The translations under genes and the position numbers were made by a program. Shown here one piece after another: positions 11,115 through 20,400 of a DNA stretch of 32,967 nucleotides. The stretch spans positions 1-32,967 of the forward strand of contig JALEHC010000103.1 of NCBI GenBank assembly GCA_022763215.1, given 5' to 3'. This DNA is from Saprospiraceae bacterium (GTDB lineage Bacteria > Bacteroidota > Bacteroidia > Chitinophagales > Saprospiraceae). Each line of letters begins with the position of its first letter. Position 1 is the first letter of the stretch. The notes beneath the pieces were generated by a model. That model was not told the origin of the DNA. It ran no database searches and was given only the letters and a program-made list of their open reading frames with translations.

Positions 11115-13691
11115 CTAGAATCTATATTCACCACCAAAGACGATACTACCTGAAAAACGATTAAACCTTCTAACCTCTTGATACATCCAGTCAATGCTTG
11201 TATCGAATATTTGATTAGGTTTCAGATTGAGAATATCTCTAAAAGTCAATTTCAATCGCCACTTCTCTGAAATGGAATAACCAAGATTGCTATTCCAAAG
11301 CAAAAAATATTGTTGTTGACGATTATTCGTGTTCCAAATCAAATTAGCATCTGATTGAAATAAAAAACTACCAGACTTAAACCTTATATCCCCTGAGAGT
11401 TGCTGAGTGATAAATTGGAATGTTGAAATTGCAGTAGTCTGCCGATTATTTGAAAATGAATATCCCAATGATAAATTGACTTTCTTTTGAAAATTAGACT
11501 TCAGGTTGAACTTGAATATTAAGCGTTCGAATACCGTTCTTTGATCATTTTCCAAGGTAGCTGTTGAGTTGAATCGGCCTTCGATATTAACCTTAAATTT
11601 GGAGTCAAAAAGCGGTTGAGTCCACCACGTTGTCCACTCAAATATTTTTTGCTGTTGTGCAATCCTTGGCCTTTGTATTAAATAAAAACCATTATTTTGG
11701 GTAGTAAAGACGATTGGGTTGTCTTGTTGATTTATAGATAAAGAGCTAAACAGCCTTCTGCCTGAAAAGGTATCAAACCAAAAATGATTGAGCAAAAGGC
11801 CTCGCTTACGATTCACTTTTCCAAAAGGCAAATCATAAACCAAGACGGAATGATCATTAATAAGCTGATAATTTTTTAACGAGAGTATAGGATTATTTAC
11901 CCGTTCTTCATAGACTCCCTTCAACAGCAAAAAATGAAGTCGAGCAAAGTTATACCTCATAGCAAATTCGTGGCTCCAAAATCCAAATACGGATGGAGTA
12001 CCTAAAAGAACGGGACTTTCTTTCCTAAATTTCACATGATACTTAAGTAAAATTTTTTTTGTCTGATAAGCCAATTTTATTTGTGGCTCAAATACACTGT
12101 TTTTGTAAGTACCATTTAATTGATTTTGAGTTGTCAGATCAGAGGAATCAGAATAAATTATACTATGATTGATTCTTTTAAAATTTAAATACGAGATAAG
12201 CCTGAATTTTCCAGGTGTGAACTCCCAACTTGTATTTATGTCTAATTCACTATGCCTTTCCTTATTTTGCTGAGGTGAAAATGAATTCGAAAAAACATCT
12301 AGCGAATCTGGCAAAGACAATACAATGTCTTCTGTTTTTTTCTGACTCAAAAATTGTCCTGAAATAGATAAAAGATGTTCTCCAGAAGCCTGATGATTCC
12401 AATAAACTTGTGGATTAATATTCTGATCAACAAGATTATTCTTCCAATCACTCGACCATAAGCGATCATTTAAATTCCCTAATGTTTGGGTATTTTGGTT
12501 ATTCTGAAAATAAGCAAAAGGCAACTCTATTTCCAGTGTAGTTTTTGCGTTTAAGGTTGACTGAGTATTTAAAGCTGCTGATAAATAAGGAAGTTGCAAT
12601 GAAGTATGCTCATCGCCTTTAAATAGGTCATTTGATCGAATATATGCTCGATGAAGTGCAGCATTTGCAGTTCGATCAAAATAACTTCCTAAAACTGAAA
12701 ACTTAGCTGTCGTGTTTTCTTTAATTTCCAAGACAGAATTAGAAGCCAGCAAGTTTTCTACATTTTCTTGTTCATTTCCTTCTTTTTTGAAACCTTCAGG
12801 GATCAGATCATCGATATGTGTAGTTTTTTTAAGGCTCTCCAATAAATTTGACTGTAACGCCAAAAAATCTGCAATAGAAATTGTTGGTTCACCCAAATTA
12901 TTCGATCGAATAAAACTTGTATGTCCAAAGCTCGAATTTACCTTCATCAAAGTGAGCTCAGATTCATACCTCGAATCGTAACCAGCAGCCATCGATATAT
13001 TCCCATTCCATTTTCCTTTTGAATTTTCACTAAGCACCAGATTTAAGGCAACTTGATCAGACCAAGACTTAGAGAACCTTGCTTTGAAAGGCTTATAATT
13101 TTTGATAATTTCTACCTTCTGAATATCCTCAGCACGTAATTGCTCACTTGCCAAACCATGCTGATTATTAAGTATATCTTTATCCTCTATCAATAACTGA
13201 TCTACTCGTTTTCCGTTATAATTAATTTGTCCATCTGGTGTTACTTCAAAGCCTGGTACCTTGCTCAGTACATCTCCAAAAGTCTCGTCTGTTTCACTTT
13301 TATAATGCTGTAAATTATAAATAGTCGTATCTCCATTTTCTACCCGAGTAATTCGTTTTGCATCAATGATCACTTCCTCAAGCTTGTTATTTATAGGAAA
13401 CAAAACTACATGAAGAGAATCTTGGTAATCATCTTTGCTTATTGGTAAAATTAACTCTTTAAAAGCCAAATAATTAACTTTGAGTAGTCGAGGCTCCTTT
13501 TTCAATGCAATACTCCAGTGACCTCGCTGATCGGCAAAGGCATAACTAAGGATTTGATCCAAACTATCTAACAAAACAACACTTGCACCTGATAGAGGTG
13601 TACCAACCGAATCAGTAACCGTTCCCTCTAATTTTTGGGCCATAACCGAAGTCACAACTAATAGCCCCAAAATCGTTAAAGTATATCGCAT
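11115..13691 (-). CDS. TonB-dependent receptor-like outer membrane barrel with carboxypeptidase-regulatory-like domain
   Basis: An 858-residue outer-membrane protein. It has a signal peptide (residues 1-19, ending VMAQ), a carboxypeptidase-D regulatory-like beta-sandwich at 20-105 (GTVTDSVGTPLSGASV), a plug-like region at about 110-235 (EEVIIDAK, DVLSKVPGFEV, IQKVEIIKNY) and a long barrel from about 240 to the C-terminal Phe (GGEYRF). This is the layout of the OMP_b-brl_3/TonB-dependent receptor relatives of Bacteroidota. No SusD partner and no obvious TonB box are seen. It starts 10 bases after the GLPGLI gene and is almost certainly co-transcribed with it, which suggests the two act on one cargo or peptide at the outer membrane; the ligand is unknown. 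Confidence 0.85.
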   Translation of the reverse strand: MRYTLTILGLLVVTSVMAQKLEGTVTDSVGTPLSGASVVLLDSLDQILSYAFADQRGHWSIALKKEPRLLKVNYLAFKELILPISKDDYQDSLHVVLFPINNKLEEVIIDAKRITRVENGDTTIYNLQHYKSETDETFGDVLSKVPGFEVTPDGQINYNGKRVDQLLIEDKDILNNQHGLASEQLRAEDIQKVEIIKNYKPFKARFSKSWSDQVALNLVLSENSKGKWNGNISMAAGYDSRYESELTLMKVNSSFGHTSFIRSNNLGEPTISIADFLALQSNLLESLKKTTHIDDLIPEGFKKEGNEQENVENLLASNSVLEIKENTTAKFSVLGSYFDRTANAALHRAYIRSNDLFKGDEHTSLQLPYLSAALNTQSTLNAKTTLEIELPFAYFQNNQNTQTLGNLNDRLWSSDWKNNLVDQNINPQVYWNHQASGEHLLSISGQFLSQKKTEDIVLSLPDSLDVFSNSFSPQQNKERHSELDINTSWEFTPGKFRLISYLNFKRINHSIIYSDSSDLTTQNQLNGTYKNSVFEPQIKLAYQTKKILLKYHVKFRKESPVLLGTPSVFGFWSHEFAMRYNFARLHFLLLKGVYEERVNNPILSLKNYQLINDHSVLVYDLPFGKVNRKRGLLLNHFWFDTFSGRRLFSSLSINQQDNPIVFTTQNNGFYLIQRPRIAQQQKIFEWTTWWTQPLFDSKFKVNIEGRFNSTATLENDQRTVFERLIFKFNLKSNFQKKVNLSLGYSFSNNRQTTAISTFQFITQQLSGDIRFKSGSFLFQSDANLIWNTNNRQQQYFLLWNSNLGYSISEKWRLKLTFRDILNLKPNQIFDTSIDWMYQEVRRFNRFSGSIVFGGEYRF

Positions 13692-13701
13692 AAAAAGCTC
13701 T

Positions 13702-14394
13702 TTACTTAAACTGATTTTTTTTCTTAAACCCCGTTAGACTTACTTTTTTATCCCGATCAGGTATCGTCAATACCGTGTTTTGTGGAATTTGTTTAATTTG
13801 GATAGCCGTTATCGTTTTGCCTTGTTCTGGAAATTCTAATTGTAGAATAAGACCTGGGAGCCCTGCATAATTTTCTGGACCTTCATTTAAAGGAAGGTTT
13901 AAAGTGAACCATGCTACAATGTTTTCTTTTAAATGCAAAGCCTTCACCACAGGATGGCCACAAACCTCTTTTTTTTCTGTAGACTCAATTTTCCAATCTG
14001 TATTTGAAGACAAAGCACCTTCAATTTGTTCATTTGCGCCCATCACGGGAGATATCATCACAAATTTTTTTGCATTCAAATCTTTGTAATAATCAAAAGT
14101 TGAAAAAGTACTATTAGCTTCTTTAGGCTTTTCAGAAGATTGGTAGATATAAGAAGATTTTTGCTGGCTCGATATGAGCTTGAAAAAGTGTTTTGTCTTT
14201 TTTTGATTTTCTACAAGCTTTGATAGGAAAGCTTTTTGAGATGCCTTAAACGATTTTGAATTAATCTTACTCAGCTTTCGCTGAATCTCTGTTCCATCTC
14301 TCCTCAACTCATAGGTTACCTCAATTGTCTGACAAGTTGCTTCTCCAAAAAATATGGTAACAAAAAATAAGCTTACTAAAATTAAAGTTCTCAT
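13702..14394 (-). CDS. GLPGLI family protein
   Basis: A 230-residue secreted protein with a signal peptide (residues 1 to about 22) and the signature GLPGLI at 178-183. This follows the usual lead-in of an ICGH-like Cys motif (Cys145), AWFTLNLPLNEGP and YAGLPG. The family is confined to Bacteroidota, often multicopy, and has no settled function. From memory, members often lie beside carboxypeptidase-regulatory-like barrel genes, as here. The chain ends in a basic tail (GFKKKNQFK). It lies 97 bases after the small secreted protein gene, with a hairpin in the gap, and 10 bases before the barrel gene. Confidence 0.93.
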   Translation of the reverse strand: MRTLILVSLFFVTIFFGEATCQTIEVTYELRRDGTEIQRKLSKINSKSFKASQKAFLSKLVENQKKTKHFFKLISSQQKSSYIYQSSEKPKEANSTFSTFDYYKDLNAKKFVMISPVMGANEQIEGALSSNTDWKIESTEKKEVCGHPVVKALHLKENIVAWFTLNLPLNEGPENYAGLPGLILQLEFPEQGKTITAIQIKQIPQNTVLTIPDRDKKVSLTGFKKKNQFK

Positions 14395-15152: not shown

Positions 15153-17690
15153 TTATTTCGAACTTTGATAAGTGGACAAGCCACAGTTCAAAAAGTCCGC
15201 ATAGTCGTCTATTCCTTCTTTGTAGCCCCGTGGTGCCGCCAATACTTTTTCATCTGGTGACATCATTACATACAAGGGCAGGGAGTTTTGCTCAAAATTC
15301 ACAATCTGGAAATCTGCCCACAAGTCTCCTACCCTTCTCAACTTCTTATTTCTTGGTTGAGAGAATATCTCCTCTTCCAATTTCTTACGGTCATCTACGT
15401 ACAGACTGATCAGTACATAGTTTTCCTGAATGTTATTCCGAACCTTGTCTGCAATCCAAATGTGTTCTTCCGTTTTACGACAGTTAACACAACCGTAGCC
15501 CGTGAAATCTAGTAAAATAGGCTTATTCTGCTCTTTTGCGTAAGCAACACCTTCATAATAATCTTTAAAACAATCCAGGTTGTTCGCACACTTCGTAAAT
15601 GATGGATACTTCGCCTTAATGGTAGGATCGACTTCCGGCTCTGGCAAAAGCACATTATACTGAGACGGAGGTGCCAAACCACTCATCAACTTCAATGAAT
15701 TATACGATTGGGTCAATTCATTCGTAAAAAATCCAGTGACCAAATATATTGTCAGTGCTAACGATCCAACGGCGAAAAAGCCACGTGTTGGGCTCAGCTT
15801 TTTCATTGGGCTATCGTGCGGAAAGCGGAACAAACCGAACAAATAGGCAGTCATAGCTGCGAAAATAACGACCCACAAGCCCATAAACACTTCATACGGC
15901 AAAATATTCCAGTGCATCGTCATATCTGCAACAGACAAGAATTTTAGCGCAAGCGCCAACTCCAGAAAACCAAGTACCACTTTTACCGAGTTCATCCAGC
16001 TACCAGAGCGAGGCAGTGAGTTCAACCAACTTGGGAACGCCGCAAATAAAGTAAACGGAATAGCCAAAGCACTGGAAAATCCAAGCATCACCACAAATGG
16101 CCCTAACGAATTGGTAGCAGACTGTACCAAAGCAGAGCCAATGATAGGTCCGGTACAAGAGAAGGAAACCAGCGCCAAGGTAAATGCCATGAAGAAAATG
16201 CCCAGGTATCCGCCTTTATTAGCAAGACTGTTACTTTTATTTGCCCACGAGCTAGGCAACGTAATTTCATAATACCCAAAGAAAGAGAACGCAAAGAATA
16301 CAAAAATCAAGAAGAATAAAGTATTGGCTACCCAGTTTGTTGATAACTGGTTCAACGCGGTGGCACCAAATACCCCCGTGATAATCAATCCAATAGCTAC
16401 ATAAATAACTATAATGGACAGACCATAAATCAATGCATCTCGAATTCCTTTTGAACGATCTTCATTGCCTTTCGTGAAGAAACTTACTGTAAGTGGAATC
16501 ATCGGAAACACACAAGGCGTAAGTAAGGCCACTAATCCGCCCAAAAATCCGAGTAGGAAAGTCCATGGTAAGCTATTTCCTCTCGCCACATCTTCCACAC
16601 CACAATCTCCAACCGGGGTAGTATATGTTGCACGAATCGTCTCGATGGTTTGGTCAATCGTGTTCCCGTCAATCGGAGCAGCTGCATTTCCAATTGCAAC
16701 AGTATTCGCGTCATTTAGCTGAAAGCTAAATGCTTCTAACTGTGGTGTCAGACATCTTTCATCGTCACAGCTTGTAAACTCCACCTCACCGGTGATAGGT
16801 GTATTTGGATCAAGTACTTTGACCTTTTGTTTGAAGACAACTGGGCCTTCTACAAACTTGATAACGATTGCATTATTAAATAATGGATCAGGCCCTTCCT
16901 TTTTCTTTCCTTCTTCTGCCATTTCGCCAACCAGTTCAAAGTGCGGACCTTCATCAAAATATACCGTGGTCGGCAGTGGCCCGTCATCCATAGAAGTATG
17001 CTGAGACGGAAGCGTCCAACCCTCATCTATTTGGGCTGTAAAGCTTAGCTCATAAAGGTTTTCCTCTAGTTCTTTTTTTGCAAAAGACCATTGAACAGGC
17101 TGCAAAATCCCACTTGGTTCAGGCGTCTCATCCAGTACTATGCTCGTCTCTTCTGGCGCTTCTTCCTGTATTTTTTCCGCTGCGGGTGTAGGAGGCGTAT
17201 CAGCAGCTACTGTTTCTTCTGCTTTTTTCGCTTTCGCTAAATCAAAAGAAAAGTCAACACTGGTTGGTGGCAAGCAACGTTCATTATCACAAGTCATAAA
17301 TTCGAGGTATCCCGTAATAGGCTTACTGGCATCGCTCACCTGCACGCGCTGCATAAACAGCACCGGACTTTTCACATATTTGATAACCACTACATTATCA
17401 AATAATGGGTCTGGTCCTTCCTTCTTTTTGCCCTTTTCACTCACTTGCCCCTGGAGGGTAAAGTGCGTTCCGGTATCAAACTCGAAGTAGGTTGGCACAG
17501 GGCCATTATCATCTGTGAATTGAGAATAGATAGTCCAGCCATCTTCCATAGTGGCGGTAAAGATCAGGTCATATTCGTTAGCACTTACCTGTTTAGACGT
17601 CATTTCCCATGTAACGGGTTCATAGATTTGCCCTTGTCCGTGCAAACTAGTCCCCAATAGAAGTATCCAGAGTAAAAACTTGAATCGCAT
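15153..17690 (-). CDS. dsbD: Thiol:disulfide interchange protein DsbD with duplicated alpha domain
   Basis: Moves reducing power from cytoplasmic thioredoxin across the inner membrane to periplasmic proteins. Numbered from the ATG at 17690 (845 residues; a GTG six bases upstream is less likely): a signal peptide; alpha domain 1 at about 22-150 with Cys134/Cys139 (TCDNERC); a Pro/Glu/Ala linker; alpha domain 2 at about 196-325 with Cys308/Cys313 (SCDDERC); the CcdA-like membrane core from about 375 to 660 with Cys393 (LTPCVFP) and Cys512 (SFSCTGP); and a C-terminal thioredoxin-like domain with Cys734/Cys737 (GYGCVNCRK). Ordinary DsbD has one alpha domain; here there are two, and a third is encoded by the gene upstream. 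The CX4C spacing is one residue shorter than the CX5C I recall for E. coli DsbD. Confidence 0.94.
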   Translation of the reverse strand: MRFKFLLWILLLGTSLHGQGQIYEPVTWEMTSKQVSANEYDLIFTATMEDGWTIYSQFTDDNGPVPTYFEFDTGTHFTLQGQVSEKGKKKEGPDPLFDNVVVIKYVKSPVLFMQRVQVSDASKPITGYLEFMTCDNERCLPPTSVDFSFDLAKAKKAEETVAADTPPTPAAEKIQEEAPEETSIVLDETPEPSGILQPVQWSFAKKELEENLYELSFTAQIDEGWTLPSQHTSMDDGPLPTTVYFDEGPHFELVGEMAEEGKKKEGPDPLFNNAIVIKFVEGPVVFKQKVKVLDPNTPITGEVEFTSCDDERCLTPQLEAFSFQLNDANTVAIGNAAAPIDGNTIDQTIETIRATYTTPVGDCGVEDVARGNSLPWTFLLGFLGGLVALLTPCVFPMIPLTVSFFTKGNEDRSKGIRDALIYGLSIIVIYVAIGLIITGVFGATALNQLSTNWVANTLFFLIFVFFAFSFFGYYEITLPSSWANKSNSLANKGGYLGIFFMAFTLALVSFSCTGPIIGSALVQSATNSLGPFVVMLGFSSALAIPFTLFAAFPSWLNSLPRSGSWMNSVKVVLGFLELALALKFLSVADMTMHWNILPYEVFMGLWVVIFAAMTAYLFGLFRFPHDSPMKKLSPTRGFFAVGSLALTIYLVTGFFTNELTQSYNSLKLMSGLAPPSQYNVLLPEPEVDPTIKAKYPSFTKCANNLDCFKDYYEGVAYAKEQNKPILLDFTGYGCVNCRKTEEHIWIADKVRNNIQENYVLISLYVDDRKKLEEEIFSQPRNKKLRRVGDLWADFQIVNFEQNSLPLYVMMSPDEKVLAAPRGYKEGIDDYADFLNCGLSTYQSSK

Positions 17691-17866
17691 AGGCACTTAT
17701 TTAATATACTGTTATAGCCGTTATCTGTTTTTGCCTTCGCGCCATTTGGCGGACAGTTTTGGCAAATACACAAACAACGAAGGTATTCGTTTCAATTTCT
17801 GTTTACCTTTCGGTAAATAGGTTTTCCTTCTTTAAATAACCGGATGATTTCTGGGAGATAATGTCA

Positions 17867-17913
17867 TTACCACAGCAAAGTATAGAAATAAACACTATTG
17901 CTTGTTGTGGTAA
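17867..17913 (-). terminator. Possible terminator/attenuator hairpin ahead of dsbD
   Basis: TTACCACAGCAA (17867-17878) pairs with TTGTTGTGGTAA (17902-17913) over 12 positions including one G-T pair, with a 23-base loop. It is the second hairpin met by a transcript leaving the upstream gene. Confidence 0.4.
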
Positions 17914-17917
17914 AAGT

Positions 17918-17945
17918 ATCGGCAACAATCAAATCTGTTGCCGAT
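17918..17945 (-). terminator. Perfect 10-bp hairpin downstream of the free alpha-domain gene
   Basis: ATCGGCAACA (17918-17927) and TGTTGCCGAT (17936-17945) pair perfectly around an 8-base loop, followed on the minus strand by ACTTTTACC. The T-tract is short, so termination may be partial. Confidence 0.55.
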
Positions 17946-18015
17946 CTAAAATTTATAATGAGTTCACTAAGAAATAAAATTTTGATTATTTCTTGATGAG
18001 GCTTTGGGAGCCACC

Positions 18016-18465
18016 CTATTTTAGTAATACTTCGAAATTCATTTCAGTTGGCGGCAAACATTGGTGATCATTACAAGTCATATACTCCACAAATCCGCTA
18101 ATTTCCATACCTGCTTTTGCCACTCTAATCGTTTGTCTTAGTTCCATTTTGGTCGCATATTTTACGACATCCATCTCAAACATGGCATCATACCCTTCTT
18201 TTTTGTCTCCACGCTCTATCGCTTCCTCAAGCAATTCTACTCCTTCTTGCTCTGTAATTTGGATACTGGTCGGAATAGGCCCACCATCTTCCAAAAACTG
18301 AGAATAAACATACCAACCGTCATCAATGGTGGCTGTAAAAACCAACTCATATTCCAGATCACTTACTTTAACGACCTCGTAAGACCAGTTGACAGGATTT
18401 GTCTGAGCGTCCACTTTCGTGAAATAAGCCAAAAACAGTAAAAATCCGAGTGTAATGTATTTCAT
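18016..18465 (-). CDS. Free-standing DsbD alpha-like (thiol-disulfide interchange N-terminal) domain protein
   Basis: A 149-residue periplasmic protein. It has a signal peptide (MKYITLGFLLFLAYFTKVDAQ) followed by one DsbD alpha-type immunoglobulin-like domain that closely parallels both alpha domains of the neighbouring dsbD: FTATIDDGWYVYSQF, DGGPIPTSI, KKEGYDAMF and the CX4C site TCNDHQCLPPT. The ATG at 18465 is chosen because it starts the signal peptide and sits just after a consensus promoter; an upstream in-frame start would bury the signal sequence. It could act as a mobile shuttle taking electrons from DsbD to periplasmic targets. That role is inferred; it lies 325 bases upstream of dsbD on the same strand. 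Confidence 0.88.
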   Translation of the reverse strand: MKYITLGFLLFLAYFTKVDAQTNPVNWSYEVVKVSDLEYELVFTATIDDGWYVYSQFLEDGGPIPTSIQITEQEGVELLEEAIERGDKKEGYDAMFEMDVVKYATKMELRQTIRVAKAGMEISGFVEYMTCNDHQCLPPTEMNFEVLLK

Positions 18466-18620: not shown

Positions 18621-19331
18621 TTAGCCAGCCATTACTTTTGAGGTGCTGAGCAATGACTCAAACAAAATCCGACCATCTGTATTCCCGAGAATATCTTCTG
18701 CGGCTCTTTCCGGGTGTGGCATCATGCCAAATACATTGCGATTGGCATTACAAATACCTGCAATGTTTTCAATAGATCCATTTGGATTGGCCTCTTCCGA
18801 AACTTGTCCATTTTCATCACAATAGTGGAACAAAACCTGATCGTTGTCCTTGAGTTGCTGCAGCGTCGCTGCATCTGCATGATAGCGGCCCTCTGCGTGG
18901 GCGATTGGAATTTTCAAAGCTTTTTCCAGATTAATATGTGCAACAATAGCTGCATTATTAGTTGGTGCTTTGAGGTATACGTTTTTACAAATAAACTTCT
19001 GATTGGAATTGCGAAGCAATACGCCCGGCAATAAACCTGATTCGCAAAGAATCTGGAATCCATTACAAATCCCCCATACAAAACCACCCTGATTGGCAAA
19101 TTCAATGACAGACTTCATAATCGGACTAAAACGTGCAATTGCTCCGGCACGTAAATAATCTCCGTACGAAAATCCTCCAGGTAAAATGATGCAGTCACCA
19201 CGCCCAAAACCAGAAATGTCTTCATCTTTATGCCAAAGCTTCACAACTTCTTGCCCCATCACTTCTGACAACACGTGTACCATATCATCATCACAGTTGG
19301 AACCCGGGAAAACAACTACGCCAAATTTCAT
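18621..19331 (-). CDS. purQ: Phosphoribosylformylglycinamidine synthase, glutaminase subunit
   Basis: Glutaminase subunit of the FGAM synthase complex in purine biosynthesis; it frees ammonia from glutamine for PurL. It is a class I glutamine amidotransferase with nucleophile Cys89 (GICNGFQ) and the catalytic His207/Glu209 in PHPER. The N-terminal [12 protein letters not shown] and [14 protein letters not shown] motifs are the usual PurQ landmarks. The 236-residue length fits the separate small subunit, so a small-type PurL and PurS would be expected elsewhere in the genome; neither is adjacent. A TAATTTTG box lies 35 bases upstream. Confidence 0.96.
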
Positions 19332-19365
19332 TTCAATTATTCTTTTGGAGATATTATAATGAGCA

Positions 19366-19373
19366 CAAAATTA
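19366..19373 (-). promoter_or_regulatory. -7 promoter box for purQ
   Basis: On the minus strand TAATTTTG, a perfect TAnnTTTG, 35 bases before the purQ ATG. No good -33 TTG is seen at the right distance. Confidence 0.4.
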
Positions 19374-19419
19374 GTGAAAATATGCTAAAGCATTTAATTT
19401 TTTCTGGTCACCCCATAAA

Positions 19420-20400
19420 TCAAACTAGTAATGGATAATACTGGAATAGTAAAACCAATAACAGCAATATGAAAAACCAGCTCTCGGCCCATCTATTAGC
19501 CAAGCTCGAAAAACTCAATGCTAATAATGTTCCGAATGGAATTGCCATTAACAAAAGCTGATCGAGAATTAACCGAGGAAAGACCACAAAACTCAATATT
19601 GAAATAAACATCATCCAATAAAAAATATCAATCTTCTTCTGTACATCAATTCCTTTCTTACTGGTATGTGCTCCATAACTAAAAATAATAATCACCAACA
19701 AAATGAAAATGATCCCTAATTGCAAAACCAAATCTAGTCCCAGTGGCTGCGTTAGCCATTTGAATTTGCCGAAAGGCGAAAACTGAAGATCAATAAATGA
19801 ATCCAACTGACCGATAAAGAAAAAATAAGTCCCTAACAAAAAATAGGGTACAAATCCCCCTGACAACAATATGATTCGCTCACTAAATTTATAGGCCCTG
19901 AGTATTTGTAAACCGATGAAAGCAAATAAAATGAATACCAGAAATGGTTGATAAAACAAGCTTGCCACACCTATCCACAGTCCTATATTAAAAATGGAAT
20001 CTGCTACATTCGGCTTTTTGTAAGCATTGAGCAAATTCATGAGCGCCAGCAAAATGAACAGATTACCCATATGCACCGGCGATAAGCCCAATAGGCCCGG
20101 TATAATAGAGCAAAAAATGACAAAAAATAAGCCGGGATACATGTTGATCTCACGATCTAGCCGATGGCTCATCGCAATTAAATTGATCAGGGCTGCCTGA
20201 ATAAACAGGAGGAAGATAGCGATAACTTTAGCAAGCCAGCTCTGCTCACCAATCCATCCATAAACGACTTTTGACAGCCAGCCATGATCAGGTACTACCC
20301 AATCTGCCGGAAACACAAAAGTATGTGCCCAAAGGCCAGCTAAAAAAAACAGTAGCAGTAAGCTTACCGCAAGTTGGTTTGTTCGAAATATCGATAACAC
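19420..20400 (-). CDS. Multi-pass inner-membrane protein (DUF6427-like)
   Basis: A 326-residue, very hydrophobic protein with around nine to ten predicted helices and no soluble domain. The opening (MLSIFRTNQLAVSLLLLFFL) and the general layout resemble DUF6427 proteins of Bacteroidota, an assignment made from memory. The start is a GTG; no better ATG lies nearby. Function is unknown. It is on the same strand as purQ with a short gap of 88 bases that includes a promoter box for purQ, so the two may not be strictly co-transcribed. Confidence 0.65.
   Translation of the reverse strand: MLSIFRTNQLAVSLLLLFFLAGLWAHTFVFPADWVVPDHGWLSKVVYGWIGEQSWLAKVIAIFLLFIQAALINLIAMSHRLDREINMYPGLFFVIFCSIIPGLLGLSPVHMGNLFILLALMNLLNAYKKPNVADSIFNIGLWIGVASLFYQPFLVFILFAFIGLQILRAYKFSERIILLSGGFVPYFLLGTYFFFIGQLDSFIDLQFSPFGKFKWLTQPLGLDLVLQLGIIFILLVIIIFSYGAHTSKKGIDVQKKIDIFYWMMFISILSFVVFPRLILDQLLLMAIPFGTLLALSFSSLANRWAESWFFILLLLVLLFQYYPLLV

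Follow-up and report, generated by a model that had tools for sequence, protein, structure and literature searches.

A multi-alpha DsbD variant in Saprospiraceae, with two alpha domains fused in DsbD and a third encoded upstream

nDsbD, the alpha domain, is the hub by which reducing power exits DsbD. Why should a single locus carry three such domains, and what might the additional copies do? The question is raised by a dsbD locus in a 32,967-nucleotide stretch of Saprospiraceae DNA (the window), for which the closest named genomes are themselves Saprospiraceae (a Saprospiraceae MAG at 77%, and Phaeodactylibacter). An initial annotation of the window had described two alpha domains fused in DsbD and one free upstream, each with a CX4C pair. 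A search of the whole genome (89% complete) with a free-alpha profile agreed with this description, returning exactly three matches, all at the window locus and well outside the range of chance (E 4e-51, 6e-45 and 1e-35), the latter two being the fused domains.

All features described below lie on the minus strand. The dsbD gene (15153..17696) encodes 847 aa from a GTG start as listed, although the ATG at 17690 is the likelier start. In its product a unit of about 130 aa occurs twice, both times with a CX4C pair, and is followed by the transmembrane and then the gamma domain. Both alpha assignments rest on the repeat, a profile match, an AlphaFold model and fold comparison, and both Cys pairs on sequence and conservation. 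Alpha domain 1 spans residues about 25-153 (17238..17624) and has its pair at Cys136 and Cys141 (MTCDNERCLPPT; 17274..17291); alpha domain 2 spans residues about 198-327 (16716..17105), with Cys310 and Cys315 (SCDDERCLTPQ; 16752..16769) directly followed by LTPQ. The linker between them (17106..17237) is predicted to be disordered except for a short helix at its start, with pLDDT falling to 42-52 in mid-linker. The transmembrane beta domain (15897..16577; DsbD_TM, PF02683, E 1.5e-29) contributes Cys395 and Cys514, and the thioredoxin-like gamma domain core (15381..15566; Thioredoxin_7, E 3e-9) contributes the CVNC motif, Cys736/739; conservation supports both assignments, these four cysteines being invariant in 160/160 homologues. 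The protein thus has the features of a DsbD: a PF02683 transmembrane domain with two conserved Cys, a gamma domain with CXXC and, twice over, an alpha domain of predicted nDsbD fold with a Cys pair. Four further cysteines (Cys365, Cys703, Cys709 and Cys838) are 97-100% conserved in Saprospiraceae versus 37-63% elsewhere in the class; they may make additional structural disulfides, close to TM1 and to the gamma domain.

The third alpha domain is a separate protein of 149 aa (18016..18465, ATG at 18465), recognized by Pfam PF11412 (E 4.5e-10), by profile search, and by its model and fold match. Read by eye, it has a Sec-type signal peptide (MKYITLGFLLFLAYFTKVDA), with no lipobox Cys in the window copy; its CX4C pair, Cys131 and Cys136 (MTCNDHQCLPPT; 18058..18075), is invariant in 60 free homologues. 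The gene lies upstream of dsbD, and because about 320 bp separate the two, their co-transcription is uncertain. When relatives' loci were compared, no redox partner was found in the shared dsbD neighbourhood, where the only recurring upstream genes were purQ and a membrane protein gene. These two (18621-20400 in the window) recur near dsbD in 47 and 70 loci, respectively, by protein match, in conserved order and with no obvious functional link. Just downstream of dsbD (11115-14394) lie genes for a Porph_ging protein and then a large carboxypeptidase-regulatory-like-domain protein, a pair not common to other loci, except for one gene in the closest relative.

Several lines of evidence indicate that the three domains are homologous, in keeping with the domain duplication originally proposed. 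The GWxxxSQ segment noted at the outset is present as GWTIYSQ (alpha1), GWTLPSQ (alpha2) and GWYVYSQ (free), and the GGPxPT-like segment as NGPVPT, DGPLPT and GGPIPT, respectively, so that 'GGP' is literal in the free copy only. Amino-acid identity is 52% between alpha1 and alpha2, 41% between the free protein and alpha1, and 37% between the free protein and alpha2; at the DNA level the three share 52-58%, with alpha1/alpha2 identical at 58% of bases. The Pfam model DsbD_N (PF11412) scores the free protein at 40 bits against a cut-off of 25, the fused region together at 23 bits, and does not detect alpha2 alone. Since the fused alphas fall under this cut-off, the tandem is overlooked by automatic annotation. 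On profile and fold evidence, the fused alphas are DsbD_N homologues, and the shortfall is a limit of the Pfam model. A PDB sequence search gave no matches for the tandem alignment and only E near 1 for the free alignment, so fold comparison was needed. When the tandem region was modelled with AlphaFold from 73 Saprospiraceae sequences, two beta-sandwiches emerged at high confidence (pLDDT mostly 90-98), connected by a linker with a disordered middle. Modelled alpha1 matched E. coli nDsbD (1jzd chain C) with Z 11.9 and rmsd 2.6 over 110 residues, alpha2 matched Neisseria nDsbD (6dps) with Z 12.7 and rmsd 2.5 over 119 residues, and the free protein (pLDDT 95) matched 6dps with Z 13.3; the best unrelated folds reached Z about 9 (first unrelated row for the tandem domains, Z 8.8). 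These comparisons support the prediction that all three alphas have nDsbD-type folds, as the initial annotation had assumed.

How unusual is this layout? The expectation that DsbD has a single alpha domain holds for E. coli and fails for Saprospiraceae: 77 named loci, selected by similarity to a tandem query, had a DsbD sufficiently complete for scoring, and of these 74 had two fused alphas and 3 had one. A free alpha gene lay upstream of dsbD in 59 of the 76 named Saprospiraceae loci with known upstream sequence, and no free alpha was found anywhere in ten genomes that have no upstream free gene. A less biased view came from a hand-transcribed tally covering 197 Saprospiraceae genomes more than 95% complete, in which the number of alpha domains was 0 in 2, 1 in 14, 2 in 97, 3 in 79, 4 in 4 and 5 in 1 (G016). 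Many Saprospiraceae have no free gene at all, with only two alpha matches per genome, and a requirement for at least two alphas in every genome of the family is rejected by the 14/197 that have one. Both observations indicate that the extra copies are dispensable over evolution. Sampled long DsbDs from outside the family revealed tandems in 13 other families, seven of the same order (f2, f8, f9, f10, f11, f12 and f17) and six elsewhere in the class (f19, f22, f26, f27, f50 and f51), alongside single-alpha DsbDs in many other families of the class; outside the class a few DsbDs are long, as judged by reading-frame length alone. Individual loci show other arrangements. One dsbD with a single fused alpha (L088) is flanked on both sides by free alpha genes, and a tandem dsbD (L089) is preceded by two; in family f10, separate proteins of 435-487 aa upstream of dsbD (L113, 975-2279; L124, 685-2145) each combine two alpha-like domains, of which the second lacks a recognizable Cys pair. 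The window layout is old, common and changeable within its class, and ordinary within Saprospiraceae.

We consider it rather likely that the window encodes a thiol reductase of the DsbD type whose output domains have multiplied, two being tethered and one free. Electrons would flow from cytoplasmic thioredoxin to the transmembrane Cys pair and on to the gamma CVNC, which could then reduce the disulfide of any of three nDsbD-like domains, two of them carried by a flexible N-terminal arm, the third secreted, separate and presumably diffusible. This flow, the partners and the diffusion of the free alpha are inferred. In E. coli, nDsbD receives electrons from the gamma domain and delivers them to DsbC, CcmG and DsbG (PMC7347389). 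DsbC was set aside as the main partner here, DsbC_N being absent from 20 relatives searched (E. coli control positive). The window genome has 20 AhpC-TSA/TlpA-type matches; on these two grounds the reduced alphas would more likely serve periplasmic thioredoxin-fold acceptors of the TlpA/ResA type. The tethered pair would most likely raise capacity without bringing in a second, fixed specificity, while the free alpha, as a distinct class able to act in trans, would probably add reach.

An alternative, suggested from the start, is a division of labour in which each of the three alphas has acceptors of its own. The motifs after the second Cys do differ (LPPT in alpha1, LTPQ in alpha2, LPPT in the free protein), and LPP is near-universal in free and alpha1 domains and relaxed in alpha2, LP or IP following the second Cys in 96% of alpha1, 76% of alpha2 and 100% of free Saprospiraceae domains. 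The LTPQ of domain 2, singled out by the initial annotation, is indeed there, and LTP is shared with a congener (TSCDDEKCLTP); it belongs to a broad set of relaxed variants found in the second domain. Alpha2 also changes faster than alpha1 (63% versus 80% amino-acid identity between window and congener). The trees, however, do not follow these positions. In a tree of 102 domains, short sequences that leave the majority of forks unresolved, the Saprospiraceae fused alphas fell mostly into one group with alpha1 and alpha2 intermixed (SH-aLRT 98; two domains of another family included, two Saprospiraceae alpha2 excluded), and the free alphas fell outside. AU tests on a set of 42 domains, covering 14 Saprospiraceae, rejected a single clade for alpha1 (p 0.002) and for alpha2 (p 0.0004), and with it the idea of two ancient parallel lineages; a single lineage of free alphas was not rejected (p 0.84), a point in favour of a separate role for that copy. 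Moreover, some lineages, both Saprospiraceae and from other families, have an alpha1 that pairs as sister with the alpha2 of its own protein (L078, L085, L115, L123 and L136), and alpha copy number is labile. The AU rejections and these within-protein sisters indicate that the tandem is old at the family level and that its positions have been repeatedly re-duplicated or homogenized. For the window protein itself, the data are compatible with alpha1 and alpha2 both as sisters (AU p 0.66) and as non-sisters. A recent local duplication is ruled out: alpha1 and alpha2 share only the 58% of bases given above, no examined pair exceeds 72%, and tandems are family-wide and recur elsewhere in the class. 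A single clade of f1 and f16 free alphas is rejected when L193, whose free and fused copies are sisters, is included, and is not rejected without it (p 0.63); in these trees, free and fused alphas look like distinct classes. Because the trees reject alpha1 and alpha2 as separate lineages, set and separate tasks for the two gained no support and are unlikely; a distinction between free and fused alphas is better supported. We regard a three-way partition of acceptors as unlikely.

Somewhat less probable still is that the extra alphas have no specific role and are simply maintained by frequent duplication, with alpha2 or the free protein drifting. The 1 to 5 copies found across the family and the relaxed alpha2 motif would suit such drift, as would the poor match of the free protein to its counterpart in the congener: at 49% identity, set against 89% for TM-gamma, it is the fastest-changing segment, which also fits weak constraint. 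Against it, the Cys pair is invariant in both fused alphas of 73 tandem homologues and in 60 free ones, and is present in all 90 alpha1, 90 alpha2 and 71 free Saprospiraceae domains, always with CX4C spacing. At the codon level, nonsynonymous change is far below synonymous change in TM-gamma, alpha1, alpha2 and the free gene relative to the congener, with synonymous sites near or at saturation, consistent with purifying selection.

The strongest evidence for a functional free protein came from a sister family in the same order, f16, probably Chitinophagaceae. Here the fused alpha has no Cys pair in 21 of 23 genomes, raw counts that are uncorrected for kinship of species and may reflect few loss events. 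These 21 loci are L146, L147, L168, L177-L192, L194 and L195 (compare YMALKGEEVTGP of L168 with YMTCNDHQCLPP of the window free protein); in 20 of the genomes a CX4C free alpha lies directly upstream, and the remaining one (G198) has it elsewhere. The two intact fused Cys pairs occur in G134, which has no free alpha, and in G222, which has one. Loss of the fused Cys pair is therefore seen only alongside a Cys-bearing free alpha, which argues against redundancy and for a free protein that functions in the DsbD pathway. From these sequence patterns, the redox role in f16 seems to have passed to the free alpha, and the free protein probably serves DsbD as a functional outlet that acts in trans. 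A serial relay, in which gamma reduces alpha2 and alpha2 then reduces alpha1 as the sole outlet, with reach across the periplasm extended, would draw on the flexible linker and the tighter constraint on alpha1, yet an arm could lengthen reach without a second Cys pair and we know of no alpha-to-alpha transfer in nDsbD, which leaves this reading very improbable. Multiplied output domains, two tethered and one free, remain our preferred reading. More tentatively, and short of what we would call probable, the free alpha may be a diffusible periplasmic electron carrier acting in trans. In this view the output module of Bacteroidia DsbD would have been copied and split off repeatedly, and in one family the free protein would have taken it over completely, leaving the fused domain redox-dead.

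The multi-alpha layout is a DsbD variant that we did not find described in the open-access literature searched, although a description may exist elsewhere, and it comes with a useful evolutionary series. Within one bacterial class there are DsbDs with one fused alpha, with two fused, with two fused and one free, and with a dead fused and a live free domain. With this natural series one can ask if tethering is essential to an alpha domain, what number of outlets is of use and if a free alpha is able to work as a mobile carrier; the pattern is easily missed since automatic annotation under-reports these domains. The window protein shares with E. coli and Neisseria DsbD (nDsbD-TM-cDsbD) a transmembrane domain with two Cys, a thioredoxin-like gamma domain with CXXC and an immunoglobulin-fold alpha domain with a Cys pair. 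E. coli DsbD has one alpha, with C103/C109 in a CX5C arrangement, whereas the window has two fused and one free, all CX4C. CcdA has in common with DsbD the transmembrane electron conduit, without alpha and gamma domains. The best Foldseek match to the whole-tandem model was the two-part N-terminal region of ScsB (6c29), a DsbD-like protein whose N-terminal periplasmic region likewise consists of two beta-sandwich parts. A plasmid-borne ScsB of Enterobacter, however, has one Cys pair (CX3C, Cys133/137) and a Cys-less second part, and adjoins ScsC/ScsD-like genes; both window domains carry CX4C, and no ScsC/ScsD-like gene was seen adjacent to the window dsbD, which sets it apart from ScsB. Stand-alone DsbD_N proteins next to dsbD in f16 and other Bacteroidia have the same gene order and CX4C-LPP motif as the window free protein; in f16 the Cys pair is gone from the fused alpha, whereas the window DsbD has kept it.
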